Source: Candidatus Hydrogenedentota bacterium
Lineage (GTDB): Bacteria; Hydrogenedentota; Hydrogenedentia; Hydrogenedentales; JAEUWI01
Assembly (NCBI GenBank): GCA_016791475.1
Contig: JAEUWI010000042.1
Coordinates: forward strand, 1-64,000
Length of the DNA: 64,000 bases
Direction: 5' to 3'
The position numbers and the translations under genes were made by a program. The notes under the pieces were generated by a model. That model was not told the DNA's origin. It saw only the letters and a list, made by a program, of their open reading frames with translations, and searched no databases. Below, in pieces: positions 29,474-53,457 of the stretch (position 1 is the stretch's first letter; the number at the start of each line of letters is the position of its first letter).

Positions 29474-30793
29474 TCAACCCTCGCCAATTGCCCGCGCCAA
29501 TATCCCTATCATCGCTCCCAATTCCTCCTCCGTGGCCGTGAGCGGCGGCCACAGGTACAGCACTTCGCCCAGGGGCCGAATATAGAGCCCCAGTTCACTC
29601 GCCCGCGCCACGATAGCCCGCGCCCGCACCGCGCCACCCGCCTTTTCCGAAATCGCACACATGCCGATCAAGCCCAGGCTCTTCTGGTAGGCCACGGAGG
29701 GCAAATTCCCGATACGCTTCATGCCCTCGGCGAGTTGGGCATAGCGCGGCGCGCAATGCTCAACGAGATTCAGTTCCTCCATCACATCCAACGCGGCCAG
29801 CGCCGCTGCCGAGGTAGTGGGATTGCCGCAGAAGGTGTGACCATCGTAAAACACCCGTGGCGTCTCGTCGGGACGACGAAACGCGTTGAAGATCCGGTCG
29901 GTGGCGATGGCCGCGCTCATGGGCAGGTGTCCCGCCGTGAGGGCCTTGCCGAGACACATAATGTCGGGAACAATACCGGCGACCTCGCACGCAAACATCT
30001 TGCCCGTGCGCCCGAAGCCCACGGCCACCTCATCGGCGATGAGCAGCACGTCGCGCGCATCGCAGAGCGCGCGAAGTTTGCGCAGGTAGCTCGCAGGATA
30101 AATGCGAATACCCGCAGAACCCAGGCAGAGCGGCTCGACAACCACCGCCGCCAATTCTTCGTGATGGGCGAGAACCATCCGCTCCATCTCGGCGAAGGCT
30201 TCGTCCGCGGCGCGCTCTTCCTCGGGATCGCCGGTGTCGCACGGCGCAAAAGGCGTGGGCGCGATCAGGGCTTGTGTCACCAGCGCGCCATAGGGCGCTT
30301 GAAACCACGACGTGAAGCCCACGCCCATCGCGCCGATGGTGTCACCATGGTATGCGTCCCGCAAGCCCACAAAGCGCGTCTTCTTCGGCTTGCCTTGATA
30401 GATCCAGTATTGCGCAGCCATCTTCAACGCCGCCTCCACCGCACTCGATCCGTCTGCCGCGAAATAGCAGCGGTTCAGATCGCCCGGGGCGATTTCCGCC
30501 AGCCGCGCGGCGAGTTGCACCGCCGGGGCATTGGCCTGCATGGCAAACACGTGGTGCTGCAACACCGCCGCCTGCGCCTGAATCGCCGCGACGACCTTCG
30601 GGTGACTATGCCCCAGCGCCACGGCCCACCACGACGCAATCCCGTCATAAAGCTTGCGGCCATCCGCCGTATGGAGATAAACACCCTCTGCCCGCTCGAT
30701 GCACGTATAGGGGGCGGCTTCATAGGTAACGGCGTCCGTGTAGGGATGCCAGGAATGGCGGTGGTCAAGAGTCTTGAGTTCTGAAAGGTTCAT
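29474..30793 (-). CDS. bioA: Adenosylmethionine-8-amino-7-oxononanoate aminotransferase BioA
   Basis: A 439-residue PLP aminotransferase of class III that converts KAPA to DAPA with SAM as amino donor. It has the BioA-specific SWHPYTDA start, SWWAVALGHSHP, the DGSSAVEAALKMA PLP-phosphate site, DEVAVGFGRTG with the PLP-binding Asp, and the Schiff-base Lys in CLGKALTAG. I chose the ATG at 30793 (MNLSELKTLDHRHSW), with GGGA about 7 nt upstream. It lies 56 bp after bioD. Confidence 0.95.
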   Translation of the reverse strand: MNLSELKTLDHRHSWHPYTDAVTYEAAPYTCIERAEGVYLHTADGRKLYDGIASWWAVALGHSHPKVVAAIQAQAAVLQHHVFAMQANAPAVQLAARLAEIAPGDLNRCYFAADGSSAVEAALKMAAQYWIYQGKPKKTRFVGLRDAYHGDTIGAMGVGFTSWFQAPYGALVTQALIAPTPFAPCDTGDPEEERAADEAFAEMERMVLAHHEELAAVVVEPLCLGSAGIRIYPASYLRKLRALCDARDVLLIADEVAVGFGRTGKMFACEVAGIVPDIMCLGKALTAGHLPMSAAIATDRIFNAFRRPDETPRVFYDGHTFCGNPTTSAAALAALDVMEELNLVEHCAPRYAQLAEGMKRIGNLPSVAYQKSLGLIGMCAISEKAGGAVRARAIVARASELGLYIRPLGEVLYLWPPLTATEEELGAMIGILARAIGEG

Positions 30794-30849
30794 GTACTGT
30801 CCCGACTGAATTACGATTCTAAGGTGCAACTTTCGTCGCCGTGGCGGCT

Positions 30850-31578
30850 CTACTCCGGCGAGAAATACGAAGCGATCTTCGCGAGCCCCGGCACGCTGGC
30901 ATCAAAGCGCTCCCAGGCCGCATCGCCCTCCACATCGCCCAGCCACGGCACGTTCCCCAGCACCTCCACCGCGCCAAACTGCGCCACGGCTTCGGGATTG
31001 TCGCGCCCGATAAAGTCTTCGCCTTCGCCGGGGGCCGTGGCGTTGAAGATCACCCCCGCAATCGGCACCTCGGCCTCGCGCAGCGTTTCGAGGGTCAGCA
31101 GGCAATGGCTGATGGTGCCCAGGCCGATGTGGGCCACGAGAAGCACGGGCGCGCCGAACTGGATGACAAGTCCCAACTGAGTCTCTTCTTCGTTGAGCGG
31201 GACCATGAGTCCACCGGCCCCTTCGATAAGCACGCCCTGGTGCGCGGCGGCCAGATGCTCGCCGCAGGACTGGCAGTGGTCCAGATTCACGTAGTGATTG
31301 CCCAGTCGGCCCGCCAGATGCGGCGAGCACGCGGGCTCGTAGACGTAAGGGCTCATCAGCGCGCGCTCTTCCGACGTGATGCTCAAGCCCGAAATCGCGA
31401 GATGAAAATCCAAGTCGGGTGCCGACAATCCTTCGGCCCCGGGAAGCCCGCCCGTCTGCACGGGCTTCATGGATACCACGTCGAGGCCCTGCTTTCGGAG
31501 ATGGCGCATAATACCCGCCGTCACCAGTGTCTTGCCGACGCCCGTGTTGGTGCCTGCTATGAAAAGTCCATTGCGCAC
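30850..31578 (-). CDS. bioD: Dethiobiotin synthetase BioD
   Basis: A 242-residue ATP-dependent enzyme that closes the ureido ring of dethiobiotin. The P-loop is GTNTGVGKT near the N-terminus, followed by MKPVQTG and the EGAGGLMVPL signature that binds substrate and ATP. The start is GTG at 31578: AGGAG stands 8 nt upstream. The ATG at 31608 in the same frame has no ribosome binding site and would place the Shine-Dalgarno inside the coding region. It is the second gene of the bioFDAB operon. Confidence 0.93.
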   Translation of the reverse strand: MRNGLFIAGTNTGVGKTLVTAGIMRHLRKQGLDVVSMKPVQTGGLPGAEGLSAPDLDFHLAISGLSITSEERALMSPYVYEPACSPHLAGRLGNHYVNLDHCQSCGEHLAAAHQGVLIEGAGGLMVPLNEEETQLGLVIQFGAPVLLVAHIGLGTISHCLLTLETLREAEVPIAGVIFNATAPGEGEDFIGRDNPEAVAQFGAVEVLGNVPWLGDVEGDAAWERFDASVPGLAKIASYFSPE

Positions 31579-31669
31579 GTTGCACGCTCCTGTGGTTATC
31601 ATGTTCATGTGTTGGTCGGAAAGTTATCCAGCGGCAGAACTAGAACGTAGAGTTGGTCTTTGCGAATCC

Positions 31670-31765
31670 GGGTCTTACCCCCCTGGCCCCCAGCAAGCGG
31701 GGGGAACCCTACTCTCCATAGTGAACCTCTTGGTCCCCCGCGCTTGCGGGGGGTAAGTGGGGTGA
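31670..31765. repeat. G/C-run inverted repeat between bioF and bioD
   Basis: CTTACCCCCC (near 31675) is the reverse complement of GGGGGGTAAG (near 31755), with GCAAGCGGGGGGA and TCCCCCGCGCTTGC between them. The long spacer and absence of a T-run argue against a terminator. It resembles a small dispersed repeat element in the operon. Confidence 0.6.
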
Positions 31766-31786
31766 GCCCAGGCAATGTCTTGTCCT

Positions 31787-32971
31787 TTATGAGTGAAGCG
31801 AAGCGTCATGGGCAACTTTACCATCCCCCACCAACACCCGCGCCACCAGCTCCGCCGCTTCACACAGCACTTCTTCTCCATGACCCAGTGTCACCGAAAA
31901 TCGCAGCCGCGCCGTGCCCTCGGGCACCGTGGGCGGGCGAATCGCCGTCACGATCAATCCCTCCGCCAACAGCGCCTCGGAAAGATCCACCGCGCGCTGG
32001 TTGTCCCCCACCATGATGGGAACGATCTGGGTCGTGCTGCGCACGATGGGCACGTCGCGCGCAGCAAGCTGCTCCTGGAAAAAAGCGGATCGCGCCAGCA
32101 ATGCCTCACCCATCGTTGGCTCGGCCTCGATCAATTTCACCGCCGCGAGACCCGCCGCCGCGTTCATGGGCGTCAGGCCCGTGCTGTAGATGAAGCTCCG
32201 CGCCTTATTGACCAGCAGGTCGCGAAACACCGCGCCGCCCGCCGCGAAAGCACCGCCGGAGCCAAGCGACTTCCCCAGTGTCCCCGTGATTAGATCGGGC
32301 TTAATCTCCAGCCCTTTGCACACACCACCACCTTCGCCCCAGATGCCGATTGCATGGGCTTCATCCACCACAAACACGGCCTCGTATTCTCGAGCCAGCG
32401 CCGACAGTTCGGTCACCGGCGCGAGATCGCCATCCATACTGAACACCGAATCCGTCACGATTATCTTACCCCCCGTGGACGGCGCGGCGGCGAGCAACTC
32501 CGCAAGATGGCTGGTATCGTTGTGCCGATAGACCTGTATGTCCGCGCGGGAAAGTCGCGCCCCATCGATGATACTCGCGTGGTTCAATGCGTCCGAAAAA
32601 ATTGTATCGCCTCGGCCCGCCAGCGCCGAGAGCACGCCCACATTCGTCTGGTAGCCGCTGGGAAACACCAGCGTCGACTCCTGGCCGCAAAACTTCGTAA
32701 TAGCCGCCTCCAGCGCCTCGTGAATGCTAAGATTCCCGGACATCAGGCGCGAAGCCGTGGCGCCACAGGCAGTATTTTCGAGAACCTCCCGCACCAAAGC
32801 CTTTAGCGCCGGGTGATTCGCGAGATCCAGGTAGTCATTTGACGAGAAATTAAGATAGCGGCGGCCATCATGCTGAAACACCCCGCCCGCACCCTGCCAT
32901 TCACGTAGAAAACGCCACCGGCGATCGTCCCGAATGGCCTGCAGATCGGCCTCATAAGCATGAGAATTCAC
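31787..32971 (-). CDS. bioF: 8-amino-7-oxononanoate synthase BioF
   Basis: A 394-residue PLP-dependent alpha-oxoamine synthase that joins pimeloyl-thioester and L-alanine. It has NFSSNDYLDLANHP near the N-terminus, GATASRLMSGN, the PLP-contacting VDEAHAIGIWG and the Schiff-base lysine K234 in TLGKSLGSGG. It is the first gene of the operon bioF-bioD-bioA-bioB; bioC and bioH, which supply the pimeloyl moiety, are not in this window. No BirA-type operator is recognisable upstream. Confidence 0.95.
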   Translation of the reverse strand: MNSHAYEADLQAIRDDRRWRFLREWQGAGGVFQHDGRRYLNFSSNDYLDLANHPALKALVREVLENTACGATASRLMSGNLSIHEALEAAITKFCGQESTLVFPSGYQTNVGVLSALAGRGDTIFSDALNHASIIDGARLSRADIQVYRHNDTSHLAELLAAAPSTGGKIIVTDSVFSMDGDLAPVTELSALAREYEAVFVVDEAHAIGIWGEGGGVCKGLEIKPDLITGTLGKSLGSGGAFAAGGAVFRDLLVNKARSFIYSTGLTPMNAAAGLAAVKLIEAEPTMGEALLARSAFFQEQLAARDVPIVRSTTQIVPIMVGDNQRAVDLSEALLAEGLIVTAIRPPTVPEGTARLRFSVTLGHGEEVLCEAAELVARVLVGDGKVAHDASLHS

Positions 32972-36002: not shown

Positions 36003-38762
36003 TCAAGCGACGTTTCTGGACGCGATCGACTCTTCAATCGTGCGGAAGAGGTGGGCGACTTCAAAGGGCTTGCGGAGCACCTGGCGGGTGGCGCCGCCAT
36101 AGCCGGCCACGTCTTCCACGTTGGCTGCGGCACCGACGAGCAGGATGACGGGAATTTCCGGGCGGCGTTTCTGAATCTCGTCGACCAGCGCCTGGGGCGC
36201 GTTGACCCCGGGGACGTTGCCGTCGAGCATCACGAGATCGACCCGGTGGGCAATGACCTCCGCGAGGGCTTCGAGTCCATCCGAGGCCGTACGCACCCGG
36301 TAGCCCCGGCTGCGCAGTGCTTCGGCCAGGACTTCTCGCAATTCAGAATCACTGTCCACAAGCAAGAGGCTGCCCTTGCTGTCCAGAGCGACCCGGGAAG
36401 CGGGCGGCGTAGCGGGCTCCGCCGGAAACGTCGAGGCGGGTTGGGGAGAAGGCTCCTGACGCATATTTTCATTGCGGGCTTGAAGGGCGGCTTCCACTTC
36501 GGGGGCGAGGCGAGGCTGAGCGCGCCGGGGCTCTACGCCTTGCTCGACCAAAGGATGCTGCGCAATCCCCGAGGAATTGCCACGGAGGCCATCGTCCGCG
36601 GTCGCAACGGGCGTTGTCCGTTCCGACGCCACGGGCAGCGTCAAGGTGCAGGTCGTGCCAGAGCCTTCCTGACTGTGCAGCGTGATGGTGCCACGGTGAG
36701 CGTCCACGATCCCGTGACAGACGGCCAGGCCCATCCCCGTGCCTTCATTGCCGCTGTGGGTCGTGAAGAAGGGCTCGAACACCTTGTCCATCACATCGGC
36801 TGGAATACCCTGGCCCGTGTCGATGAATTGAATGATCACGGCGGTGCGGTCCTGATTGGGCCGCACGCGGATCGTAAGCTTGTCGCCCTGGCGGGCCATG
36901 GCCTGCTCAGCATTCTTCAGGATGTTCTGAAACACCTGCTCCATCTGTACGCGGTCAAGCTGGACCGCGGGCAGATCGGGCGCGTAGTCTTCGACCAGTT
37001 GGATGCCTTCGTCTTCCAGGCGCTTCCGCACGCGATCAACCGTGGCCTGCAGCAACTGGCTGACGCGGCTGGGGGTAAGCTGGGGCGGGTTGGGCCGGGC
37101 AAACTGGAGGAGATCGCGCAGAATGCCGCTGGCGCGCTGGCTATGCTCGATAATGACCTCAAGGGCACGCTGGTCCTCCGGGCGCTGCGCGCTGCCCAGG
37201 AGCAACTGCGCCTTGCCGGATATGACGGCCAGGGGATTGTTGATTTCGTGGGCCGCACCCGCGGCCATTTTGCCGACGCTAATCAGGCGCTCGGTCTTGC
37301 GATCGTGGCGGTGGGTCAGTTCCTGCTTCCAAACCGCCGCGGCGAGGGATTCCGCTTCCTCGTTGGCGCCGCGTACGGCGTTGCAACGGGCAAGGGCCGT
37401 GCCGGCGGCCCGCATGAACCGCATCAGCGAATTGAGGAAGTTCTCCGAGAGCACGGGACCGCCCTGACCGCTTTGGAAAATGAGCTGGCCCACGCTTCGG
37501 TTGCTGTGGAACAGGGGCAGCGCCATGAAGCCATGGCGGTGGACCGCCGAGGCCGGCGCACGCCCGCTCGCATCGCGGGGACCGCCCAGGGCGGATATGA
37601 GTTCGTCGAGGGAGGCCGCCGCCAGGCCACCGTTCTCTTCGCGTAGTGGCACCACCTCCGGGGTTTCCGCCAGGCTGTGCCAGCGCAAGACGACCTGGGC
37701 TCCCGAACGCTCTTCCGTCAGGTAGCACAAGCCCGCGGGAATGGCGAAAGCCTGTCGCAACGCGTCGATGAGAAGCGTGAGCTGGCCGGTAGTGGAGAGG
37801 CCGGGTTCCAGGCGCTCATAGAGGTTGCAGAGCGCCTCGTAGTATTCCCGTTCCTGTCGCAGGCGGCCCACGTCTTCGCGCACATCGGAGCGCGACGCAC
37901 TCTCGCCCCGAGGCGCGGGGCGTACGGGCGCATCAAGCCGCTCCTCGGAGGAACTGCGCAGCATCTCGATTACATCGACGCGCTCAAGGCCAAGGCGCAT
38001 CCAGCGCTGCTCGTCCATCGCGGCCATGCGCTCCTGCGGGGGCGCTTCCAATTCGTCGCCATGGGCGAGAAAATTGGCCAGCGCCACAATCTCGATCAGT
38101 TGCACGGGATAGGGGGTATTGTCGAGGGTTCCGGGCGGATGGTGGTGAAGCCAGATCGCGGCGACCAGGGTCGAGGGCAATCCCCAACCTTCGGCGAGCC
38201 ATTTTCCCGCCACGGTATGGTCGGCGCCGAGCTCTCTTCGCTCCGCTTCCAGCGCATAGAGCCCCTGCTGGCGAACAAGCTCAAGCGCCCGTGTGTAACC
38301 GCGCACCACGACGCGATCAAGGGCCGGCTTCCCGATGTCATGCAGCAGGCCCGCCACATAGGCCAGGGCCTCGTAGCGGCTGTTTATCTTCCGGGCGATA
38401 TTGCGCGCATAGCGGGCGGTCGTGAAGGCGTGGGTCCAGAACCCCTTGAGATCGATCCCGTGACTGCGGGGTTCGTCGAAGAGGTTGGGCGCGATCTGGG
38501 CGAAGACCACTTCCGCAACGCGGGCGATGCCAAGACCGAGCATGTGATCTTCGAGCGGTGCGTGGGCACTCGCATGGTTTTCACTGATGGACGCGGCGCG
38601 CAGGGCCATCGACATCTCATCATCGAACGCGGCAATCGCCGCAAGCTCTTCCCAATGAACGGAACCGGCATCCAGAGACAGCAGAATCTCCCGTGCCAGG
38701 TGGGGCAGCACAGGTAGTTGCTGTAAAGAGCTAATCCTCTGTTTTACATCCGTGTTCGTCAT
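36003..38762 (-). CDS. Hybrid histidine kinase with N-terminal HDOD domain
   Basis: A 919-residue cytosolic hybrid sensor. An HDOD domain occupies residues 1-230, starting ISSLQQLPVLPHLAREIL and retaining the HD motif in GLLHDIGKP. A GAF-like domain follows (about 310-470), then HisKA with H505 in GAAHEINNPLAVISGKAQLLL and HATPase (about 600-720, ending GTGMGLAVCHGI). After a Pro/Ser/Thr-rich linker comes a C-terminal receiver (about 795-915) with D847 in VMLDGNVPG. No membrane segment is visible, so it senses a cytoplasmic signal. HDOD at the input end of a kinase is uncommon, and the partner regulator is not adjacent. Confidence 0.9.
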   Translation of the reverse strand: MTNTDVKQRISSLQQLPVLPHLAREILLSLDAGSVHWEELAAIAAFDDEMSMALRAASISENHASAHAPLEDHMLGLGIARVAEVVFAQIAPNLFDEPRSHGIDLKGFWTHAFTTARYARNIARKINSRYEALAYVAGLLHDIGKPALDRVVVRGYTRALELVRQQGLYALEAERRELGADHTVAGKWLAEGWGLPSTLVAAIWLHHHPPGTLDNTPYPVQLIEIVALANFLAHGDELEAPPQERMAAMDEQRWMRLGLERVDVIEMLRSSSEERLDAPVRPAPRGESASRSDVREDVGRLRQEREYYEALCNLYERLEPGLSTTGQLTLLIDALRQAFAIPAGLCYLTEERSGAQVVLRWHSLAETPEVVPLREENGGLAAASLDELISALGGPRDASGRAPASAVHRHGFMALPLFHSNRSVGQLIFQSGQGGPVLSENFLNSLMRFMRAAGTALARCNAVRGANEEAESLAAAVWKQELTHRHDRKTERLISVGKMAAGAAHEINNPLAVISGKAQLLLGSAQRPEDQRALEVIIEHSQRASGILRDLLQFARPNPPQLTPSRVSQLLQATVDRVRKRLEDEGIQLVEDYAPDLPAVQLDRVQMEQVFQNILKNAEQAMARQGDKLTIRVRPNQDRTAVIIQFIDTGQGIPADVMDKVFEPFFTTHSGNEGTGMGLAVCHGIVDAHRGTITLHSQEGSGTTCTLTLPVASERTTPVATADDGLRGNSSGIAQHPLVEQGVEPRRAQPRLAPEVEAALQARNENMRQEPSPQPASTFPAEPATPPASRVALDSKGSLLLVDSDSELREVLAEALRSRGYRVRTASDGLEALAEVIAHRVDLVMLDGNVPGVNAPQALVDEIQKRRPEIPVILLVGAAANVEDVAGYGGATRQVLRKPFEVAHLFRTIEESIASRNVA

Positions 38763-43575: not shown

Positions 43576-45255
43576 ATGGGTAGTCGAATCCACCTATATG
43601 CGCTTCCGGGATTGCCCATTCACGTGGACGATCTCATGCCGCAGCCCATGCTGGCGCGGTGCAGCGGCACCCTTGTCGCCCAGGGCCATTCGGTACTGAT
43701 TATCGACGAAGGGTCCGTGGACTGCCTCGACGCCGCCTGCTGCCCCGCCCTGAACCATGCCCTGGCCGATCACCTGGACCACGTGGAAGGCCGCCTCGAA
43801 GGCTGGGCCGGCAGATTTTCGTCGCGAGAACGCCACCTGCGACGTGCCGTGGACAGGTTTCGTGGCGAACGCGTCGCCCGCGTCATCGCCCGACACGCGG
43901 CAGCGCCTCCCGACCTGGCCCTGATCCAGATTCATCGCCCGAAGGACGTGGCCGATGCCCGCCTCCTCGCGCAAGGGCTCAAGGAGCGCCATCCCGGCCT
44001 TGTTGTGGCGGTCGCGGGTGAATTTGTAGAGAATTTTGCACGGCTGCTCCTTCACGGCAGCGCCGAATTTGACGCCGCCTGCCTGGAGTCCCCCGAATCC
44101 GTGCTCACCGGTCTTGCCCGAAGTCTTGCCGCGCGGGAGCAGTGGGCCTCTGTTTCCGGCCTGCTGTTTCGGGATGGCGCCCGTCTGGTGGAAGGCGCGG
44201 GCGGCGCGCTCCAAATCGATCCGCGCTTTTCCTCCGCGGACTACCATCCGGCCCGGTATCCCGGCCTGCTGGACGGCGGCAAGATCAAGCTCTTCACACT
44301 GCCCCAGACCACGGGCCACGCCCACCGCGGGCATTACCGCGGGGGCTCCCCGCCGCGCAAGCGCGTGGTGCGAGAGTGCCGCCAGTTGCGATCGGACCTT
44401 GAGCAACTGCACCGCCTCTACGGGGCGGAGATCTTCCACGTCAGTGGAAGCCACACACCGGCCGAAATGGTGCAGGGCTTCGCATCGGAGTGCCTGGGCC
44501 TTCCCTTTTCCATTCGCTACAGCCGCGATGCCCACGTACACGAACTGGGCGCGGACGCGGTCCACGCCTTGAGCGTTTCAGGTTGCGAGGCCGTGGGATT
44601 GACCCTTCTTACGGGCAGCCAGTGGACACTGTCGGACTACTACGGCGAAAACTGGACCATCAGCGAAGCGGAGACCTGCCTGCGGCACATTCGTTCCCAT
44701 GGGCTGTACGTCCACACGACTTTTACCTTCCCCTGCCCGGTGGACGACTACCACACCCGCGCGGAGACCTTCCGAATCGTCCGCCGGAACCGTCCGGATG
44801 GAATTCGGTTGAGCCTTCCGACGCTGGCGCCCGGGAGCGCCTGGTTTCAACATGCCAGTGAGTTTAATTTCGACCTTTCGCTTAAGAAACTCGAGGCCTG
44901 GGTCTGCAATCCCCCCTTCACCGCGAACCTGCGGGATGAGGCGGCCAGCCTCCCATTCCAGATCGGCTCGCTCCGGGCAACCGGTGTGGCGGGACGCTGC
45001 GCCGAGGCGTCCGCGGAGCTGGCGGAACTGGAGATCGCGGAAGTCGCCGGTGCGGCCGTCGCCCTTATGGCCCGGGTATCGGGATACGCCGGTCATGAAT
45101 CCGAGTATACGCGCACGCTCGAAGACGCGGCGCTCCGCCTGGATCTCGGCCACCTGCGCGAGGCCATCGAACTATTCAACGTCCGGGCGACCGCCTCGAT
45201 CAATACCATCGACCTGTTCCCGGCGGTTCCGGTCAAGAAAGTTGTGGGGAATTAG
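43576..45255 (+). CDS. B12-binding/radical-SAM-like protein lacking the cluster cysteines
   Basis: A protein of 559 residues laid out like B12-dependent radical SAM enzymes (BchE/HpnR style). A Rossmann-like N-terminal domain (LVAQGHSVLIIDEG; ADARLLAQGLKERHPGLVVAV) is followed by a hinge (VSGLLFRDGARLVEG) and a TIM-barrel-like part: LRSDLEQLHRLYGAEIFHVSG, GCEAVGLTLLTGS, RSHGLYVHTTFTFPCP and LAPGSAWFQHA. The place of CxxxCxxC (about 44290-44370) reads TLPQTTGHAHRGHY and has no cysteine, so it cannot bind the SAM cluster in the usual way. The B12 motif DxHxxG is also absent. It is probably non-catalytic or remodelled. The start is uncertain: ATG 43576 follows the promoter but has only a weak ribosome binding site. 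Confidence 0.7.
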   Translation: MGSRIHLYALPGLPIHVDDLMPQPMLARCSGTLVAQGHSVLIIDEGSVDCLDAACCPALNHALADHLDHVEGRLEGWAGRFSSRERHLRRAVDRFRGERVARVIARHAAAPPDLALIQIHRPKDVADARLLAQGLKERHPGLVVAVAGEFVENFARLLLHGSAEFDAACLESPESVLTGLARSLAAREQWASVSGLLFRDGARLVEGAGGALQIDPRFSSADYHPARYPGLLDGGKIKLFTLPQTTGHAHRGHYRGGSPPRKRVVRECRQLRSDLEQLHRLYGAEIFHVSGSHTPAEMVQGFASECLGLPFSIRYSRDAHVHELGADAVHALSVSGCEAVGLTLLTGSQWTLSDYYGENWTISEAETCLRHIRSHGLYVHTTFTFPCPVDDYHTRAETFRIVRRNRPDGIRLSLPTLAPGSAWFQHASEFNFDLSLKKLEAWVCNPPFTANLRDEAASLPFQIGSLRATGVAGRCAEASAELAELEIAEVAGAAVALMARVSGYAGHESEYTRTLEDAALRLDLGHLREAIELFNVRATASINTIDLFPAVPVKKVVGN

Positions 45256-45261
45256 CGAACT

Positions 45262-46506
45262 ATGGAAATCAATGCGGTAGTCGTAACCGGCATGGGCGTA
45301 TTGTCCTGCAACGGCATTGGACGCGAGGCCTACTGGGACGCCATTGCGGCGGGGCGCACGGGCATACGCAATATAAAGCGCTTCGACGCCTCGGACCTGC
45401 CCTGCCAGATCGCGGGAGAACTCTGGGATTTCAATCCCGAAGATTTCATGAAAAAGAGCGTGGTGCGCAACTGGAACCGCCATGTCCACCAGGCCATCGC
45501 CGCGGCGCGCCTGGCGGTTCAGGACGCGGGCCTGAAGGCCGCGGGCTACGATCCGGAGCGGATCGGTGTTTCGGTGGGCACGAGTATCGGCTCACCGGAC
45601 GAGGCCTACAAGGGCCACATGGAGGCGATGGAGACGGCGGGCTACAAGAAGATTAACAAGCTGGCTTCGTCGGCCTTTTCCGGACATTCGGCCACGGTGC
45701 ACGTGTCGATCGATATCGGTGTTCGCGGACCGGCCATCACGATTGCCAGCGGCTGCGCCACGGGGCTGGACGTGTTGAACTGGGGCTACAATCAGATTCG
45801 CATGGGCTATGTCGACGCGGCGGTGGTGGGCGCGACGGAATCCCCTATTTTCCCCCTCTCCATCGCCTCAGCCTGTTCGCTGGGCATTCTTTCGCGGCGC
45901 AACAACGATCCAGGCGGCGCCATGCGCCCCTATGATCGGCACCGCGACGGAATTGTGCTCAGCGAGGGCGCATGCACGCTGGTGCTGGAACGGGCGGACA
46001 AGGCGCGCGCCCGTGGTGCGCGCATCTTCGCCGAAGTGGCGGGCACTGGCTCGGCCGCCGAGGGCCAGAACCCTCTGGTGCTGGAGGCGGAAGGCAAGAC
46101 CCTGGCCCGGGCAATCCAGTCCGCCATGACCACCGCGGGGATGGGGCGCAGCGATGTCGGCTGCATTCAGGCCCACGGCGTATCCCTCGAAATGTATGAC
46201 CGCTGCGAAACCAATGCCTATAAGCGGGTATTCGGCGAGCAGGCCTACCGCATCCCGGTCAGCGCGGTCAAGTCGATGATTGGCCAGTCCTATTCCACGG
46301 GCGGCCTGATGGGGGTGGGCGCCGCCCTGATGACACTCGAGCGGGGTATCCTTTCGCCGACGGTGAACCTGGAGGATCCCGATCCCGCCTGCGACCTCGA
46401 TTTTGTGCCGTTGAAGGCGCGGATGAACGATATTGACTCGGCGCTCGTGGTCTCCATCAGCTTCGGCGGGACCCACTGCGCCACCGTACTGCGGAAGGTT
46501 GCCTGA
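45262..46506 (+). CDS. Beta-ketoacyl synthase (FabF-like) with Cys-His-Gln active site
   Basis: A 414-residue thiolase-fold condensing enzyme clearly related to KAS II. The nucleophile C165 (SGCATG) and the first His H305 (QAHGVS) are present. The second catalytic His, normally in KSMxGH, is Gln (Q342, KSMIGQSYSTGG), and the FGGTN loop near the C-terminus reads FGGTH (H405). This is unlike housekeeping FabF, where both His are invariant and Asn follows FGGT. The chemistry may be altered (e.g. non-decarboxylating, acyl-transfer or chain-length-setting). It begins 6 nt after the radical-SAM-like gene and ends 2 nt before the kinase gene, so it belongs to the same operon. Confidence 0.9.
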   Translation: MEINAVVVTGMGVLSCNGIGREAYWDAIAAGRTGIRNIKRFDASDLPCQIAGELWDFNPEDFMKKSVVRNWNRHVHQAIAAARLAVQDAGLKAAGYDPERIGVSVGTSIGSPDEAYKGHMEAMETAGYKKINKLASSAFSGHSATVHVSIDIGVRGPAITIASGCATGLDVLNWGYNQIRMGYVDAAVVGATESPIFPLSIASACSLGILSRRNNDPGGAMRPYDRHRDGIVLSEGACTLVLERADKARARGARIFAEVAGTGSAAEGQNPLVLEAEGKTLARAIQSAMTTAGMGRSDVGCIQAHGVSLEMYDRCETNAYKRVFGEQAYRIPVSAVKSMIGQSYSTGGLMGVGAALMTLERGILSPTVNLEDPDPACDLDFVPLKARMNDIDSALVVSISFGGTHCATVLRKVA

Positions 46507-46508
46507 AC

Positions 46509-49025
46509 GTGGCCGATATCTCCGCGATAGCGACCTCGACGCTGCTGATAACAGCCGCGGTGTCGAGCTGCCTCCTGGGCCTGCTGGTCCTGGTGCGCAA
46601 TCCGGAGCGGAACACCCATCGATTTTTCGCCCTCCTGACCCTGAACCTCGCCCTGTGGTCGGCGGGTGTGTTTTTCATCATTCACTCCCACACCGAGGAA
46701 AGCGCGCGCAACTGGATTATGGTCACCTTTGCCGTGGCCAGCTTCCTCCCCGCCACCTTCTATCATTTCATCGGCTATTTCCCCGATCAGAAGTTCAAGG
46801 GAATGACGTGGTACCTCTACCTGCTCTATGCCGCGGCCATCACCCTCACGGGGCTGGTGAATACCCGTTGGTATATTGTCACGCTTCATCCCTTCGAAGA
46901 CGCGCCGCCCCAGGCAACCTATGGACGGGTGTTCGACGTCTATTCGATCATGATCGTGGCGACGATGACCCTGATGTTCGTCAACCTGTTCCGGAAACTC
47001 CGCCACAGCCAGGGCATCCAGCGGCGACAGATCGAGCATGTCATCGCCTCCATCTTCGCCGGCGTGGGGCTGGCTTCCGCCACGAACGTCATCGCGCTGG
47101 CCCTTTTCGGCGTGGACAGCATGCAGCAGTATGGGCCCTGCTTCATGGTGCTGATGATGGCGGGCCTCGCCTACTCGATGGTCCGCTACCACCTGCTGGA
47201 CATCTGGTTCATCCTCTCGCGGACTACGGTATACGCCTTCGTTACCGTCTTCGTCTTCATCCTCTATTTTTCGGTCGTTACACTCGTCCACGCCGTCTTC
47301 AGCCAGGCGGGCCGCGCCTACGACATGCTCAGCATCGCCCTGACCTCCATGGTCGTGGCGGTGGTCATTCAGCCCCTCCGCGAGCGCGCCCAGCTCCTGC
47401 TGGACCGGGTCATCCGGCACCGCCGCTACGATACGGAAGCCCTCAGCCAACGCATCACGCGTCTGGCCAATCAATATGTTCAATTGGAGCACATCATGGA
47501 GCGGGTGTCGGCGGATTTGCGCCAGACCCTCGGCGTCACGGGCCTGCGGGTGCTGCTGGTGGACAAGGGCAAAGACCCGCTGGTCTATACGGCCTACTCG
47601 ACCCGGGACACCAACCCCGCGCCGGACGCATCGATCGGATTCGTGCTGGACTACGTGGCCGGCAATTTCGAGCCCCTTATCCTGGAAGAGTTGGAGCACC
47701 GCTCCCCCATCCCCCAGACCGCCCGCCTGGCCAAGAGCCTCCGGGCGCTCGGTGCGCAGGTCGTGATTCCCCTGGTCACCCAGTCCGGCGTGCTCGGGCT
47801 GATCGTCCTGGAGGACAAAGAAACCCACGACGTCTACACCTACGACGACTGGCGGGTTTTTTCCACCATCGCCGGCCCCCTCGCGACGGCGATAGAAAAC
47901 TCCCGCCTCTACGGCCAGCTCGAAGAATTGAACGTGCACCTGGAACTAATTCTGCGCAACATGCGTGGTACGGTTATCGCCGTGGACACGAATGGCGTCA
48001 TCAAGACGATCAATCAGGAGGGCCGTTCCGTGCTGGGTCCCGTCAGCCCCGGCATGTCGCTGGGGGTACTCGACACCAAGGTGGCCCACCTCCTCCAGAT
48101 GACCCTGGACAACAAGCGCGGCATCGTGGATGTGGAGACCAATATTATCAATGGGGTTGGCGAGGAAATGCCGGTGGCCATGTCCACCTCGTGCCTGGAT
48201 ATGCCGGGCCAGGGCATGAAGGGGGCGATGGTGCTGATCCACAACATGACCCAGATCAAACGCCTTGAATCCAATGTACAGCGCGCGGACCGGCTCAATT
48301 CCATCGGCACGATGGCCGCCGGCATGGCCCACGAAATCAAGAACCCGCTCCAGTCCATCAAGACATTCACCCAACTGCTCCTGGACCGTTACGACGATGC
48401 CGACTTTCGAAATACCTTCGCCGAAGTGGTTCCACCCGAAGTGGACCGCATCGACAACATCGTGACGCGCCTGCTCCACTTCGCGCGGCCGCAACCGGTT
48501 TCCTTCCGCCTTCACGACATCCGCCAGATACTGACCAACGTCTTCGCGCTGGTGGAAAACCAGATGCGGAAGTCCGGCGTGGCGCTGCATCTGGACATGC
48601 CGGAGAACGGCGTGGGCGTGATGGCCGACAATCAGCAGTTGCATCAGGTCTTTCTTAATCTGGTGCTCAATGCCATCGAGTCGATGACGGACTCGCCCAA
48701 CCCCATGATCGAAGTCAAGGTGAGCACGGGCCACGGGCGGCTGCAACAGAAGGGCTCCGTGCTTCGTCACGACGTGCCCTGCGTCCGCACCGTCATCCGT
48801 GATCGGGGCTGCGGGATCTCTCGCGAGCACCTGAAACAGTTGTTCACGCCGTTCTTCACGACCAAGGCCGATGGCAGCGGGCTGGGGCTGTCGGTGGTGC
48901 ATGGAATTATCACGGAACATCAGGGTGTCATTGATGTAAGCAGTACCCCCGGCGCCGGTTCGTCCTTTACTGTAACTTTCCCGCTGGCGGGGAGCACCGA
49001 ATCCATCGAAAGGGTCGGGCTATGA
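46509..49025 (+). CDS. 7TM sensor histidine kinase
   Basis: An 838-residue membrane kinase. About seven to eight N-terminal membrane helices (residues 5-290) resemble the 7TM histidine-kinase input module. Then follow a GAF-like domain (about 320-470), a PAS-like domain (about 475-590), HisKA with H608 in GMAHEIKNPLQSIKTF and a HATPase with all boxes: NLVLNAIES, RDRGCGIS and GSGLGLSVVHG. The kinase is predicted to be active. It starts with GTG 2 nt after the ketosynthase stop, so it is translationally coupled to it. Its stop overlaps the next kinase by ATGA. Confidence 0.9.
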   Translation: MADISAIATSTLLITAAVSSCLLGLLVLVRNPERNTHRFFALLTLNLALWSAGVFFIIHSHTEESARNWIMVTFAVASFLPATFYHFIGYFPDQKFKGMTWYLYLLYAAAITLTGLVNTRWYIVTLHPFEDAPPQATYGRVFDVYSIMIVATMTLMFVNLFRKLRHSQGIQRRQIEHVIASIFAGVGLASATNVIALALFGVDSMQQYGPCFMVLMMAGLAYSMVRYHLLDIWFILSRTTVYAFVTVFVFILYFSVVTLVHAVFSQAGRAYDMLSIALTSMVVAVVIQPLRERAQLLLDRVIRHRRYDTEALSQRITRLANQYVQLEHIMERVSADLRQTLGVTGLRVLLVDKGKDPLVYTAYSTRDTNPAPDASIGFVLDYVAGNFEPLILEELEHRSPIPQTARLAKSLRALGAQVVIPLVTQSGVLGLIVLEDKETHDVYTYDDWRVFSTIAGPLATAIENSRLYGQLEELNVHLELILRNMRGTVIAVDTNGVIKTINQEGRSVLGPVSPGMSLGVLDTKVAHLLQMTLDNKRGIVDVETNIINGVGEEMPVAMSTSCLDMPGQGMKGAMVLIHNMTQIKRLESNVQRADRLNSIGTMAAGMAHEIKNPLQSIKTFTQLLLDRYDDADFRNTFAEVVPPEVDRIDNIVTRLLHFARPQPVSFRLHDIRQILTNVFALVENQMRKSGVALHLDMPENGVGVMADNQQLHQVFLNLVLNAIESMTDSPNPMIEVKVSTGHGRLQQKGSVLRHDVPCVRTVIRDRGCGISREHLKQLFTPFFTTKADGSGLGLSVVHGIITEHQGVIDVSSTPGAGSSFTVTFPLAGSTESIERVGL

Positions 49026-50935
49026 ACGTGTTGCTGGTCATTGCCGAAGACAGGAGCGTTTGGGAGGCGCTGCGCGCCTCGCTGCCGGAGGGCGACTTGA
49101 TCCTGCATGAGCCCAGCGTGGCCACCGCCCGCCGCCGGATCGCATCGGTAACGGTGGACGCGATATTTCTGGACGACACCTCCCTCAGCGGCGAGAACCT
49201 GGTCGAGGCGGTGAAGGACATGGCGCCGGGCGTTCCCCTCGCGGTCCTCTCCAATCGCGAGGACCTGCTGACCCAGGCGGCCCTCACCCGATCGGGCGCG
49301 AATGCCGTACTCACCAAGCCGTTTTCCTGCGATTCCCTACAGGAGGCCCTGGCTTCCCTGGTTCATACGACGGTCATGGCGAGCGTGGTGCAGCCCCACC
49401 TGGAAGTGCCGAGCCACCAGCCGATTTTCCTGGGCCAGCACCAGATGGCCCTTCGCTGGATCAGCCGCCTGACCGGATGCAAGGATGACATGGACCGGTT
49501 GGCCCGCCGCCTGATGGAGGCCACGGTAGACATTTTCGACGCGACCCGCTGCTGCCTGCTGCTGGAAAAAGGCGGGCGCGTATCCGTGGGCGCGTCCCAC
49601 GGGCTCAATGAGCACATCACCGGCCAGCTCCGCCTTTCCTTCAGCGCTGGACTGATGCACTGGTTTGACAGCCACGCGTGCCTCTTTGATGTCCACGCCA
49701 TTCGCTCCTCGCCCCAGGCGCTGAAAGAACTGCAAGTCCTCAACGGCATCCTGGCGGCGCCCCTCATGCGGGATGGCCAGGTCTTCGGCGCGCTGGTTCT
49801 CGGTGAAAAGGCCTCGGGGCTCTCCTATGTGCAGGAAGAGCGCGAGCTACTCTCGCTCTTCGTGCGCTCCGTGGAGATCCTCTTCGAAGACATGTCGCCC
49901 TACCGGCGCATCGAACACGAAACGCCGTCGGTCATGGCGGGCGATCTTCCGGTCGGCCTGGTCTCCGTTTCCGGAGATCGCAAAATCATGGCGCTGAACA
50001 AGCGGGCGGAGATCCTCCTGCAACTGTCCGCGGCGAAGGTGCTGGGGTCCAGCGTGCAGAAGCTCGGCTCCGCTTTTGCCGATGTCATCCTCCGGAGCAT
50101 GGCGCGCAAGGAATCGCGCTTCAATGAGGTCATTCGCGATCCCGTTTCCAAAGGCCAGCTCTCCCTCAATGTGGCCCCCGACCCCCACGGCGGCGCGACG
50201 GTTGTCTTCCAGGCCCACGCCGAGGATCGGGTCTCCCAGGAAGAAATCGCCTACAGCCCCTTCTGGGAATATCTCTCCACCCGCGTCGCCCAGGAAATCA
50301 AGAACCCGATGGTGGCCATCAACACCTTCGCCCAGCTCCTGCCGCGCAAGTATGAGTCCGAAGACTTCCGGGACGCCTTCAGCCGGGTGGTCCAGCAGGA
50401 AGTGGAGCGCATCAACCGGGTCGTGGAGACCCTCTTCGAATTTGCGCGCAACCCCAACCTGCGCCTCCAGCAATGCGACATCAATGAGACCGTCCGGTCG
50501 GTATTGAGCTCTTTCGAGACCGAGCTGGCAAATCGCTCCATCAAACTGGCGCAGAATTACGATCCGGACCTGGACGAGACCGACATGGACCCGGTCTTCT
50601 TCTCCCAGGCCCTCCACAATGTGGTGCAGAACTCCATCGAGGCGGTGCCTCCAGGTGGTACAATACAGGTCAGCACGGCGCGCAAGGACAACTCAATCGA
50701 GATACGCATCGCGGATTCCGGCCCCGGCGTGCCCAAAGAAGAGACGGACCGCATTTTTCTGCCCTTCTACAGTACGAAGGAGCACGGGATGGGTCTGGGC
50801 CTGACGATCGCCAATCGCATTCTCCACCAGCATCAGGGCGCCATTCGGTGGGTCACTGATGAAAAGGACGGCAATTATTTCGCCCTTCAGATACCGACTA
50901 CGGAGCTGAGCCATGCAGACCATTCTGGCGATTGA
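49022..50935 (+). CDS. Receiver-GAF-PAS-HATPase pseudokinase (phospho-acceptor His replaced by Gln)
   Basis: A 637-residue soluble protein with an N-terminal receiver-like domain (residues 1-115; acidic E9-D10, DD at about 51-52 in IFLDDTSLSG, Lys in LTKPF). A GAF-like domain (about 150-280) and a PAS-like domain (about 295-400) follow, then a HisKA-type helix pair and HATPase with NSIEAV, DSGPGVP and GMGLGLTIANRIL. The H-box reads VAQEIKNPMVAINTFAQLL: Gln at residue 424 (CAG, 50291-50293) stands where the upstream kinase has His. ATP binding is probably retained but autophosphorylation cannot occur. It starts by a 4-nt overlap with the active kinase. Confidence 0.9.
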   Translation: MNVLLVIAEDRSVWEALRASLPEGDLILHEPSVATARRRIASVTVDAIFLDDTSLSGENLVEAVKDMAPGVPLAVLSNREDLLTQAALTRSGANAVLTKPFSCDSLQEALASLVHTTVMASVVQPHLEVPSHQPIFLGQHQMALRWISRLTGCKDDMDRLARRLMEATVDIFDATRCCLLLEKGGRVSVGASHGLNEHITGQLRLSFSAGLMHWFDSHACLFDVHAIRSSPQALKELQVLNGILAAPLMRDGQVFGALVLGEKASGLSYVQEERELLSLFVRSVEILFEDMSPYRRIEHETPSVMAGDLPVGLVSVSGDRKIMALNKRAEILLQLSAAKVLGSSVQKLGSAFADVILRSMARKESRFNEVIRDPVSKGQLSLNVAPDPHGGATVVFQAHAEDRVSQEEIAYSPFWEYLSTRVAQEIKNPMVAINTFAQLLPRKYESEDFRDAFSRVVQQEVERINRVVETLFEFARNPNLRLQQCDINETVRSVLSSFETELANRSIKLAQNYDPDLDETDMDPVFFSQALHNVVQNSIEAVPPGGTIQVSTARKDNSIEIRIADSGPGVPKEETDRIFLPFYSTKEHGMGLGLTIANRILHQHQGAIRWVTDEKDGNYFALQIPTTELSHADHSGD

Positions 50936-52298
50936 TGATGAACTGAGCATCCGGGAATCCTACCGGATAATTCTCAGCGACGACTACCGGGTGTACCTGG
51001 CGGAAGATGGCGCGACGGGCCTCCAGATCCTTTCCGAGAAGCATGTGGACCTGATCCTCCTCGATCTCACCATGCCCGGCATGACGGGGATGGACTTTCT
51101 GGAGCGCCTCGACGAACGGGGCGAGATGGTTCCCGTACTGATTGTGACCGGCTCCAACACCGTGGATATTGCGGTAAAGGCCATGAAGAAGGGCGCGCGC
51201 GAATTCGTTATCAAGCCTTTCGACGTCGACGATCTCACCACGCTCGTGGAGCGCACCCTGGAGGAGCTGCGGGAAAAGCGCGAGCTGTCCACGCTGCGCG
51301 AGCAGGGCTCGGCGGGTTTTGAGCACATTATCGGAGAGGCCCCGTCCCTGCTGGAAGCCCTGGCCAAGGCGCGTCAGGCGATGGAAGTGGACTCCACGGT
51401 GCTGATCACGGGCGAAACGGGCACCGGCAAGGACGTCCTGGCCCGGGCGATTCACTTCGGCGGCAAACGCAAAGCCGACCCCTTCGTTCCCCTTTCGTGC
51501 TGCGCCATTCCGGCGAACCTGGTGGAGAGCGAACTTTTCGGTCTCACCAAGGGCGCCTTCACCGGCGCCACCGAAAGCCGTGTGGGCAAGATGCAGGTGG
51601 CCGATCGCGGAACGCTCTTCCTGGACGAAATCGGCGAGATGCCCATCGAGGCCCAATCCAAGCTCCTGCGCGTCCTCCAGGAAGGCACCTTTTATCCGGT
51701 GGGCGGCAATCGTGAAATCGAGGTCGATGTACGCTTCATCTGCGCGACCAATCGCCCCTTCGACAAGGCCATCGAGGAAGGACTCTTTCGCCAGGACCTC
51801 TATTACCGCATCAACGTGCTCCCCATCACCATGCCGCCCCTGCGCAAGCGACGGGAAGACATACCCAAGCTCATTGCCCACTTCGTGGCCAAGCACGGCC
51901 CGCGGGTCAACTCTCGCGTCCAGGATTTCGAGGCCCGGGCCATGTCGCGCCTCATGGCCTGCCAGTGGCCGGGCAATATACGTGAACTCGAAAACACCGT
52001 GGAGCGCATTCTCGTCTGCCACAGCGGCGAACGCATTATCCGCGCGGAATACCTGAACGGTATCGTAGCCGGCGAGGGCGGCGTCGAGGTCAATGGCCTG
52101 GAAGACTTCGCCGGACTCCCCCTCCAGGAGGCCACCCAGCGCCTCGAACGACACCTGATCAAGAAAGCGCTGGAGCAATGCAACTACGTCCAGTCCCAGG
52201 CGGCGGATGCCCTCGGGACAACCCGGCGTATCCTCAAGTACAAGATGGACCAGTTGGGCATCAGCGACCAGGAAGACAAACAGTCCCTGGCGAGTTGA
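50913..52298 (+). CDS. NtrC-family sigma-54-dependent response regulator
   Basis: A 461-residue activator. Receiver: residues 1-120, phospho-acceptor D51 (LLDLTMP), Lys in VIKPF. AAA+ domain: Walker A GETGTGKD (about 167-174), GAFTGA loop (214-219) for contact with sigma-54, Walker B LFLDEIGEM. A Fis-type HTH (about 430-455) ends with TTRRILKYKMDQLGI. It therefore drives sigma-54 promoters. It overlaps the pseudokinase gene by 23 nt, so the three signalling genes are coupled. The target is unknown; a candidate sigma-54 site at 5464 lies far away. Confidence 0.93.
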   Translation: MQTILAIDDELSIRESYRIILSDDYRVYLAEDGATGLQILSEKHVDLILLDLTMPGMTGMDFLERLDERGEMVPVLIVTGSNTVDIAVKAMKKGAREFVIKPFDVDDLTTLVERTLEELREKRELSTLREQGSAGFEHIIGEAPSLLEALAKARQAMEVDSTVLITGETGTGKDVLARAIHFGGKRKADPFVPLSCCAIPANLVESELFGLTKGAFTGATESRVGKMQVADRGTLFLDEIGEMPIEAQSKLLRVLQEGTFYPVGGNREIEVDVRFICATNRPFDKAIEEGLFRQDLYYRINVLPITMPPLRKRREDIPKLIAHFVAKHGPRVNSRVQDFEARAMSRLMACQWPGNIRELENTVERILVCHSGERIIRAEYLNGIVAGEGGVEVNGLEDFAGLPLQEATQRLERHLIKKALEQCNYVQSQAADALGTTRRILKYKMDQLGISDQEDKQSLAS

Positions 52299-52557: not shown

Positions 52558-53457
52558 ATGAGCATTACCGTCGTTGGCTCTGTTGGCCTGGATACTGTGG
52601 AAACGCCTTCGGGCCGCAATGAGGAGGGCCTGGGCGGGGCGGCGGTGTACTTCTCCCTCGCCGCGGCCAACTTTGTACCTGTCAATCTGGTCGGTATCGT
52701 GGGTGAGGACTTCCCCGCCGAGCACGTGGCGCTCCTGGAATCGAAACAGATCAATCTGGAGGGCCTGGAACGGGCGGAGGGAAAGACCTTCCGCTGGTCC
52801 GGAAAGTACCACGACGATGTGAACGAGCGGGACACGCTCGACACGCAGTTGAATGTCTTCGAGACCTTCCACCCCAAGCTCCCCGAATCAACCCGGAACG
52901 CGCCCTATCTCTTCCTCGGCAACATCCATCCGGCCCTCCAGCTTGAAGTGCTGGACCAGGCCCAGCCGAAGTTCATCGCCCTGGACACGATGAACCTGTG
53001 GCTCACCATCACCCTCGGCGAGGTGAAAAAAGTGCTCGCCCGCGTGAACTGCCTGATCATCAACGATGGCGAAGCGAAGCAGCTCACCGGCGAAATGAAT
53101 CTGCGCGATGCGGCGCGGGCGATCCGCGCCATGGGACCCTCCATCGTGGTCATCAAGAAAGGCGAGCACGGCTGCATGCTCTTCGGCGCGGACGGCGAGA
53201 TTTTCTCGATTCCCGCCCTGCCGCTGGAGGTGGTCATGGACCCGACCGGTGCGGGCGACAGTTTCGCCGGGGGCTTCATGGGCCATATCGCCCGGAGCGA
53301 CGCCACCGACTTTGAGACCCTGAAGCAGGCCGTAGTGTATGGCAGCGCCTCGGCCTCCTGCACCTGCGAAGCCTTCGGCCCCGACGCCCTGGCGGCGGCG
53401 GACACTGCGAAGATTCAAGAACGCTACGCGGCCTTCAAACAACTGACGTCCTTCTAA
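52558..53457 (+). CDS. PfkB-family carbohydrate kinase
   Basis: A 299-residue ribokinase/PfkB-type kinase. The N-terminal glycine motif EEGLGGAAVYFSLAAA and the C-terminal signature DPTGAGDSFAGGFMG with catalytic D234 are intact. Substrate-specific lid residues do not tell the sugar. It phosphorylates a sugar or nucleoside in the cytosol. AAGGAA precedes the ATG by 9 nt. It is followed 51 bp later by an exported Gfo/Idh/MocA enzyme, and a terminator follows that gene, so a two-gene operon for catabolism of one polyol or sugar is plausible. Confidence 0.9.
   Translation: MSITVVGSVGLDTVETPSGRNEEGLGGAAVYFSLAAANFVPVNLVGIVGEDFPAEHVALLESKQINLEGLERAEGKTFRWSGKYHDDVNERDTLDTQLNVFETFHPKLPESTRNAPYLFLGNIHPALQLEVLDQAQPKFIALDTMNLWLTITLGEVKKVLARVNCLIINDGEAKQLTGEMNLRDAARAIRAMGPSIVVIKKGEHGCMLFGADGEIFSIPALPLEVVMDPTGAGDSFAGGFMGHIARSDATDFETLKQAVVYGSASASCTCEAFGPDALAAADTAKIQERYAAFKQLTSF

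Follow-up and report, generated by a model that had tools for sequence, protein, structure and literature searches.

The window, a stretch of 64,000 nucleotides from Candidatus Hydrogenedentota (contig JAEUWI010000042.1, assembly GCA_016791475.1), harbors five consecutive genes that encode a radical-SAM-fold protein, a ketosynthase, two sensor kinases (HK1 and HK2) and a σ54 regulator, in this order (Table 1). The coding gaps measure 6 and 2 nt and are followed by overlaps, so that the five genes can be considered an operon. Genes for an ACP, a reductase, a dehydratase or any other pathway enzyme are absent from this operon. No conserved σ54 site was found in the window: the one match, with 1 mismatch, lies far from the operon, and it was dismissed as a promoter candidate because 1.86 such matches are expected by chance. 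A pfkB-like kinase gene near the module, comparable to the one downstream of the operon, is also seen by eye in the sequence of two Methylomirabilota loci (L135 8243-9208; L141 9237-10202), on a different side of the module from that in Hydrogenedentota, where it is confirmed by Pfam.

Table 1. Genes of the operon, its downstream neighbor and the codons of the ketosynthase discussed in the text
Feature	Position in the window	Strand	Remarks
Cobalamin-dependent radical-SAM-fold protein, first operon gene	43576..45255	+	longest ORF from 43402; 43576 likely start (alignment)
Cys-His-Gln ketosynthase (KAS II fold)	45262..46506	+	414 aa
Cys165 codon (FabF Cys163, invariant nucleophile)	45754..45756	+	
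Glu267 codon (FabF Asp265, gate loop 2)	46060..46062	+	PMC7138838
His305 codon (FabF His303, invariant)	46174..46176	+	
Gln342 codon (FabF His340, substituted catalytic His)	46285..46287	+	
His405 codon (FabF Asn404, gate loop 1 flank)	46474..46476	+	PMC7138838
HK1, HisKA_7TM-GAF-HisKA-HATPase sensor kinase, phospho-acceptor His intact	46509..49025	+	2 nt past the ketosynthase stop
HK2, REC-like-GAF-HisKA-HATPase, phospho-acceptor His replaced by Gln (VAQEIKNP)	49022..50935	+	overlaps HK1 by 4 nt
NtrC-type response regulator, REC-σ54 AAA+-Fis HTH, GAFTGA motif	50913..52298	+	overlaps HK2
pfkB-family kinase	52558..53457	+	downstream in 11/20 Hydrogenedentota loci read; uncertain whether it belongs to the module

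The ketosynthase contains Pfam ketoacyl-synt domains, and its residues 5-411 align with FabF (1j3n) at an E value of 6.6e-90 in phmmer. Its AF2 model (pLDDT 91.6) superposes on FabF crystal structures at ~1.6 Å over ~411 residues in Foldseek, so the KAS II fold is present at full length; the best matches are KAS II enzymes, which places the protein outside the KAS III fold and family. What it lacks is the Cys-His-His triad of FabF/KAS II, since Gln342 stands at the position of His340. The spacing of C165, H305 and Q342 (140 + 37) is the same as that of C163, H303 and H340 in FabF, which rules out an alignment shift, and FGGTH405 falls on FabF FGGTN404. An earlier reading of this DNA from sequence alone had pointed out both substitutions, and spacing, phmmer, Foldseek and conservation all bear them out. 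The same reading had the enzyme following KAS II throughout apart from these two positions; the full-length match stands, the exception does not, as Glu349 is replaced by Gly351, Thr305 by Val307, Thr307 by Leu309, Arg206 by Gly208, Gly399 by Ser400 and Asp265 by Glu267. FabF residue numbers exclude Met, and the genome's own FabF and those of Methylomirabilota match the E. coli FabF reference at the positions discussed. Scores against the curated FabF models remain below their cut-offs (361 against 493.75 for TIGR03150, and 345.5 against 387 bits for NF005589).

KAS III-type enzymes carry an amide (Asn) at the third triad position. It was therefore too strong to call the replaced residue essential for decarboxylation, as the sequence-only reading did, while its placing of Q342 at the catalytic His position was right.

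A search of 60 related genomes yielded a one-to-one ketosynthase orthologue at 52-89% identity, and the orthologues in this range belong to Candidatus Hydrogenedentota. The next-nearest ketosynthases, 42-44% identical, belong to the anammox bacteria Brocadia and Jettenia, to other Planctomycetota and to a Rokubacterium. The genome from which the window is taken carries a separate FabF, which is 35% identical to the ketosynthase of the window. The survey covered three phyla, Hydrogenedentota, Planctomycetota and Methylomirabilota. Gln342 is found in 34/34 Hydrogenedentota, 18/19 anammox-group Planctomycetota and 8/11 Methylomirabilota, that is, in 60/64 module ketosynthases with His342 in the other 4/64, and His occupies the position in 10/10 FabF; one of the patterns used in the first scan of contigs included Gln342, and the sets from anammox bacteria, Planctomycetota and Methylomirabilota were drawn partly from whole-protein searches in which residue 342 played no part. 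Its occurrence in 34/34 Hydrogenedentota rules out chance and assembly or sequencing error as the origin of Q342. Among 30 orthologues, Cys165, His305 and Gln342 are all invariant.

The module ketosynthases resemble FabF in fold, in length, in a GFGG-like gate loop and in the equivalents of Cys163, His303, Lys335 and Asp311, which are invariant in all 64 (here Cys165, His305, Lys337 and Asp313). They differ from it, besides His340 to Gln, at Glu349 (Gly/Ser/Asn or Gln), Thr305 (Val/Ala or Asn/Ser), Thr307 (Leu/Ile/Met/Val), Arg206 (Gly, with Asn in two), Gly399 (Ser/Ala/Cys), Asp265 (mostly Glu) and Asn404 (mostly His). Unlike FabF, the window ketosynthase belongs to a dedicated sensor-kinase operon, coexists with a separate FabF in the genome and scores below the curated cut-offs. 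The invariant Cys, His and Lys speak for an enzyme in which an acyl-Cys is still formed. It is also very improbable that the protein is a degenerate pseudoenzyme whose sole remaining role is that of a scaffold: catalytic motifs have indeed been lost in its neighbors, but Cys165, His305, Lys337 and Asp313 are invariant over three phyla, and no other protein of the operon is as well conserved as the ketosynthase (median identity 67.5%; the radical-SAM-fold protein has 29%).

In FabF, Asn404 pairs with Asp265 and couples the two gate loops (PMC7138838). This gate network, which includes the GFGG loop, is absent from the window ketosynthase, where His405, Glu267 and SFGG are found. His occupies position 405 in 32/34 Hydrogenedentota, and Tyr in the other 2. 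The proposal that H405 serves as a base compensating for Q342 is ruled out, as each residue occurs without the other: His342 is combined with His405 in four proteins (L109, L118, L119 and L121), and Gln342 with Val or Ala at 405 in three (L117, L120 and L122). A rewired gate, through the changes of Asn404 to His and of Asp265 mostly to Glu, appears from these alignments to be the simpler reading.

In a tree built with the trait columns removed, the module ketosynthases group without exception in a single clade (SH-aLRT 100), separate from FabF, KS-alpha, CLF-like proteins and the KSa/KSb pair of anammox bacteria. Altered condensation or acyl-transfer chemistry, suggested in the sequence-only reading, would be consistent with such a distinct, conserved clade that keeps its Cys and His. 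At least three changes of state at residue 342 are needed on this tree, and the simplest history, with FabF as the outgroup, would be a single change from His to Gln followed by two from Gln to His. Homologues with His342, which had been named as the finding that would speak against the reading, do exist in the 4/64, and judging from their placement they look like two reversals nested inside the Gln clade. Such reversals suggest that both residues can serve similar roles in the same general reaction.

The planctomycete ketosynthase L154 has a canonical Cys-His-His triad and a FabF-level score, and joins the tree on the stem of the module clade with moderate support (87). Genes resembling HK1, HK2 and the regulator come after it (L154 3257-10506). 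This placement, together with its own kinase neighbors, suggests that Gln arose within a pre-existing ketosynthase-kinase module, of which L154 is possibly the ancestral form; a search for further canonical-type modules among 4 genomes of its class gave nothing new. Both L154, a canonical enzyme in the same arrangement of ketosynthase, HK1, HK2 and regulator, and the near equivalence of Gln and His implied by the two apparent reversals would fit a decarboxylating ketosynthase of the ordinary kind that serves a specialised lipid; Gln342 would then take the part of the KAS III Asn, and the two-component genes would regulate the lipid pathway. The full-length KAS II fold agrees with this as well. 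It is nevertheless an unlikely explanation, because several substrate-handling residues besides His340 are changed, the scores fall below the curated FabF cut-offs, and the operon lacks a reductase, dehydratase or ACP gene.

The gene order of the window is kept in 20/20 Hydrogenedentota loci read, some of them ending at contig or fetch limits. In anammox bacteria the order is HK2-like kinase, regulator, radical SAM, ketosynthase and HK1, and in Methylomirabilota it is ketosynthase, HK1, second kinase, degenerate kinase and regulator. The ketosynthase gene lies directly 5' of HK1 in 20/20 Hydrogenedentota and 10/10 anammox loci, and this pairing also holds in further Planctomycetota and Methylomirabilota loci with readable downstream sequence. 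This gene context, which the sequence-only reading had overlooked, is the principal result. Across 68 Hydrogenedentota genomes, 35 have both the ketosynthase and HK1/HK2, 3 the ketosynthase only, 2 a kinase only and 28 neither (Fisher test, 1.7e-13, ignoring kinship among the 68 genomes); fragmented assemblies may lie behind the 5 discordant cases. That the ketosynthase is so strictly tied to a 7TM kinase suggests sensing of either its product or its acylation state.

The phospho-acceptor His of HK1 is kept in every sequence checked. The equivalent position of HK2 is Gln in 20/20 readable Hydrogenedentota and Asp in the Methylomirabilota counterparts checked, and the His is kept in L148 and L154. 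A conserved HK2 that is predicted to be non-phosphorylatable therefore adjoins an HK1 of the active type. The AF2 model of the radical-SAM-fold protein (pLDDT 88.7) predicts a B12-binding domain plus TIM barrel, and its best Foldseek matches are TsrM, CysS and AprD4 (E 1e-14 to 1e-17). The CxxxCxxC cluster motif is missing from the protein in the window; it is kept in 3/21 Hydrogenedentota copies (L045, L046 and L049; two of the 21 are partial) and is present in the anammox copies checked. This is also the fastest evolving gene of the operon.

The loss of the radical-SAM cysteines and of the HK2 phospho-His, by which the Hydrogenedentota partners appear degenerate too, could be accommodated if the ketosynthase were an acyl-ACP sensor, forming an acyl-Cys adduct without condensation and passing its state to HK1/HK2 by contact, so that the operon would read the status of fatty acid synthesis. 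Without the second His, E349, T305 and T307, malonyl handling would be weakened while Cys, His and Lys stay, the gate residues are rewired, and the strict linkage to HK1 would be expected. This explanation is still rather unlikely, since Arg206, which contacts ACP, is replaced by Gly or Asn, and since the intact radical-SAM motif of anammox bacteria and the additional genes found in some loci point to biosynthesis.

These additional genes are extra ketosynthases and an ACP. Some anammox operons (L145 3485-6066, L147 10704-13869 and L151 4612-7137) add a canonical ketosynthase and a CLF-like one whose Cys is replaced by Ala or Gly, and L147 has an ACP besides; they resemble small type II PKS-like clusters into which sensor kinases are built. 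A Methylomirabilota locus (L142 5713-10993) has the order ketosynthase, ACP, Gln-type ketosynthase and HK1. The CLF-like KSa proteins of these related operons, together with the altered triad, are what could be said for a partner subunit that resembles a chain-length factor but has, unusually, retained its Cys, as the sequence-only reading had also considered. That role is highly improbable: no partner ketosynthase adjoins the gene in the window operon or in 20 Hydrogenedentota loci read, the module clade is separate from CLF-like KSa, which branches elsewhere, and Cys and His never vary, while CLFs have lost the active-site Cys. In Hydrogenedentota, a full biosynthetic pathway is not evident, given that the window operon has no ACP or pathway enzymes and that the radical-SAM motif is lost.

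The reading favored over the acyl-ACP sensor and the specialised elongating enzyme, and tentatively so, as it falls somewhat short of an even chance, is that of an active ketosynthase-fold enzyme acylated at Cys165 that has left FabF elongation and would work inside a dedicated signaling operon, making or processing an acyl-derived ligand. It draws on the single clade apart from FabF, the separate genomic FabF and the linkage to HK1, on the radical-SAM structural relatives CysS and TokK, which act on pantetheinylated substrates, and on the precedent of PqsBC, which is ketosynthase-like, has an altered triad and produces a quorum-sensing signal (PMC4807248). According to this ligand-making model, an acyl group from acyl-ACP or acyl-CoA would load on Cys165, as the invariant Cys, His and Lys and the fold imply. 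His305 and the Gln342 amide would bind the carbonyl of a second substrate, with Gln in the hydrogen-bonding role of the KAS III Asn, and condensation, acyl transfer or cyclisation would yield an acyl-derived product. This product, or its membrane-partitioned form, would be sensed by HK1, given the strict linkage, and HK1 would phosphorylate the σ54 regulator, with HK2 as a probable non-phosphorylatable modulator, judging from the domains. HK1 could instead sense something unrelated, the ketosynthase being the regulated output. The wider proposal of a chemical-signaling family in three phyla, in which the adjacent 7TM kinase would sense the signal of a Cys-His-Gln ketosynthase and control σ54 promoters, is possible but doubtful.

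The Pseudomonas quinolone signal receptor is a LysR-type regulator. AtoS/AtoC and PrsK/PrsR have the same architecture of a GAF/7TM-type kinase with a σ54 NtrC-family regulator; the kinases and the regulator of the window fall far short of the curated cut-offs for AtoS/AtoC- and PrsK/PrsR-like proteins, and neither system is known to include a ketosynthase. PqsBC is likewise a ketosynthase-fold condensing enzyme of a signaling pathway in which the third triad residue is replaced and Cys and His are kept, but it is a KAS III family heterodimer with an Asn to Val change and is not homologous at family level (PMC4807248). The KS domain of the tenuazonic acid synthetase TAS1 is of KAS I/II type, has an amide for the second His (Cys-His-Asn) and performs a cyclisation, but it is a fungal NRPS-PKS domain with Asn, not Gln, and without a signaling operon (PMC4640141). 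The comparisons of Gln342 with KAS III, TAS1 and PqsBC are best taken as analogies.

Divergent FabF paralogues of Kuenenia stuttgartiensis have been proposed to act in ladderane synthesis (PMC2649909). They too are FabF relatives from an anammox bacterium, with altered active sites and with radical SAM genes nearby, but in Table 2 of that paper they have Val, Phe or Ser for Cys and other residues for both His, none being Cys-His-Gln, and kinase genes are not mentioned. An identity with these ladderane paralogues of Rattray 2009 was dismissed, as the active-site residues given there differ.

The open-licence papers searched describe neither a Cys-His-Gln KAS II clade nor a module that joins a ketosynthase to a 7TM kinase, so that the novelty of both is provisional. 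The conserved triad change, together with the constant position before a membrane sensor kinase, suggests a so far undescribed system coupling acyl chemistry to gene regulation. With Gln in place of the second catalytic His over three phyla, the role of this residue can be tested by natural Gln/His swaps, and the near-perfect linkage ties the chemistry of the ketosynthase to a sensor kinase and a σ54 regulator. If the two proteins are a synthase and its receptor, they would represent a bacterial signal system of a new kind, and the module is present in anammox bacteria, which are important for the nitrogen cycle.

Elsewhere in the window, on the reverse strand, three ORFs at 29474-32971 (a class III aminotransferase, a dethiobiotin-synthetase-like ORF and a class I/II aminotransferase) resemble a bioA-bioD-bioF-type biotin cluster, and a large HDOD-HD-HisKA-HATPase-REC hybrid protein is encoded at 36003-38762.
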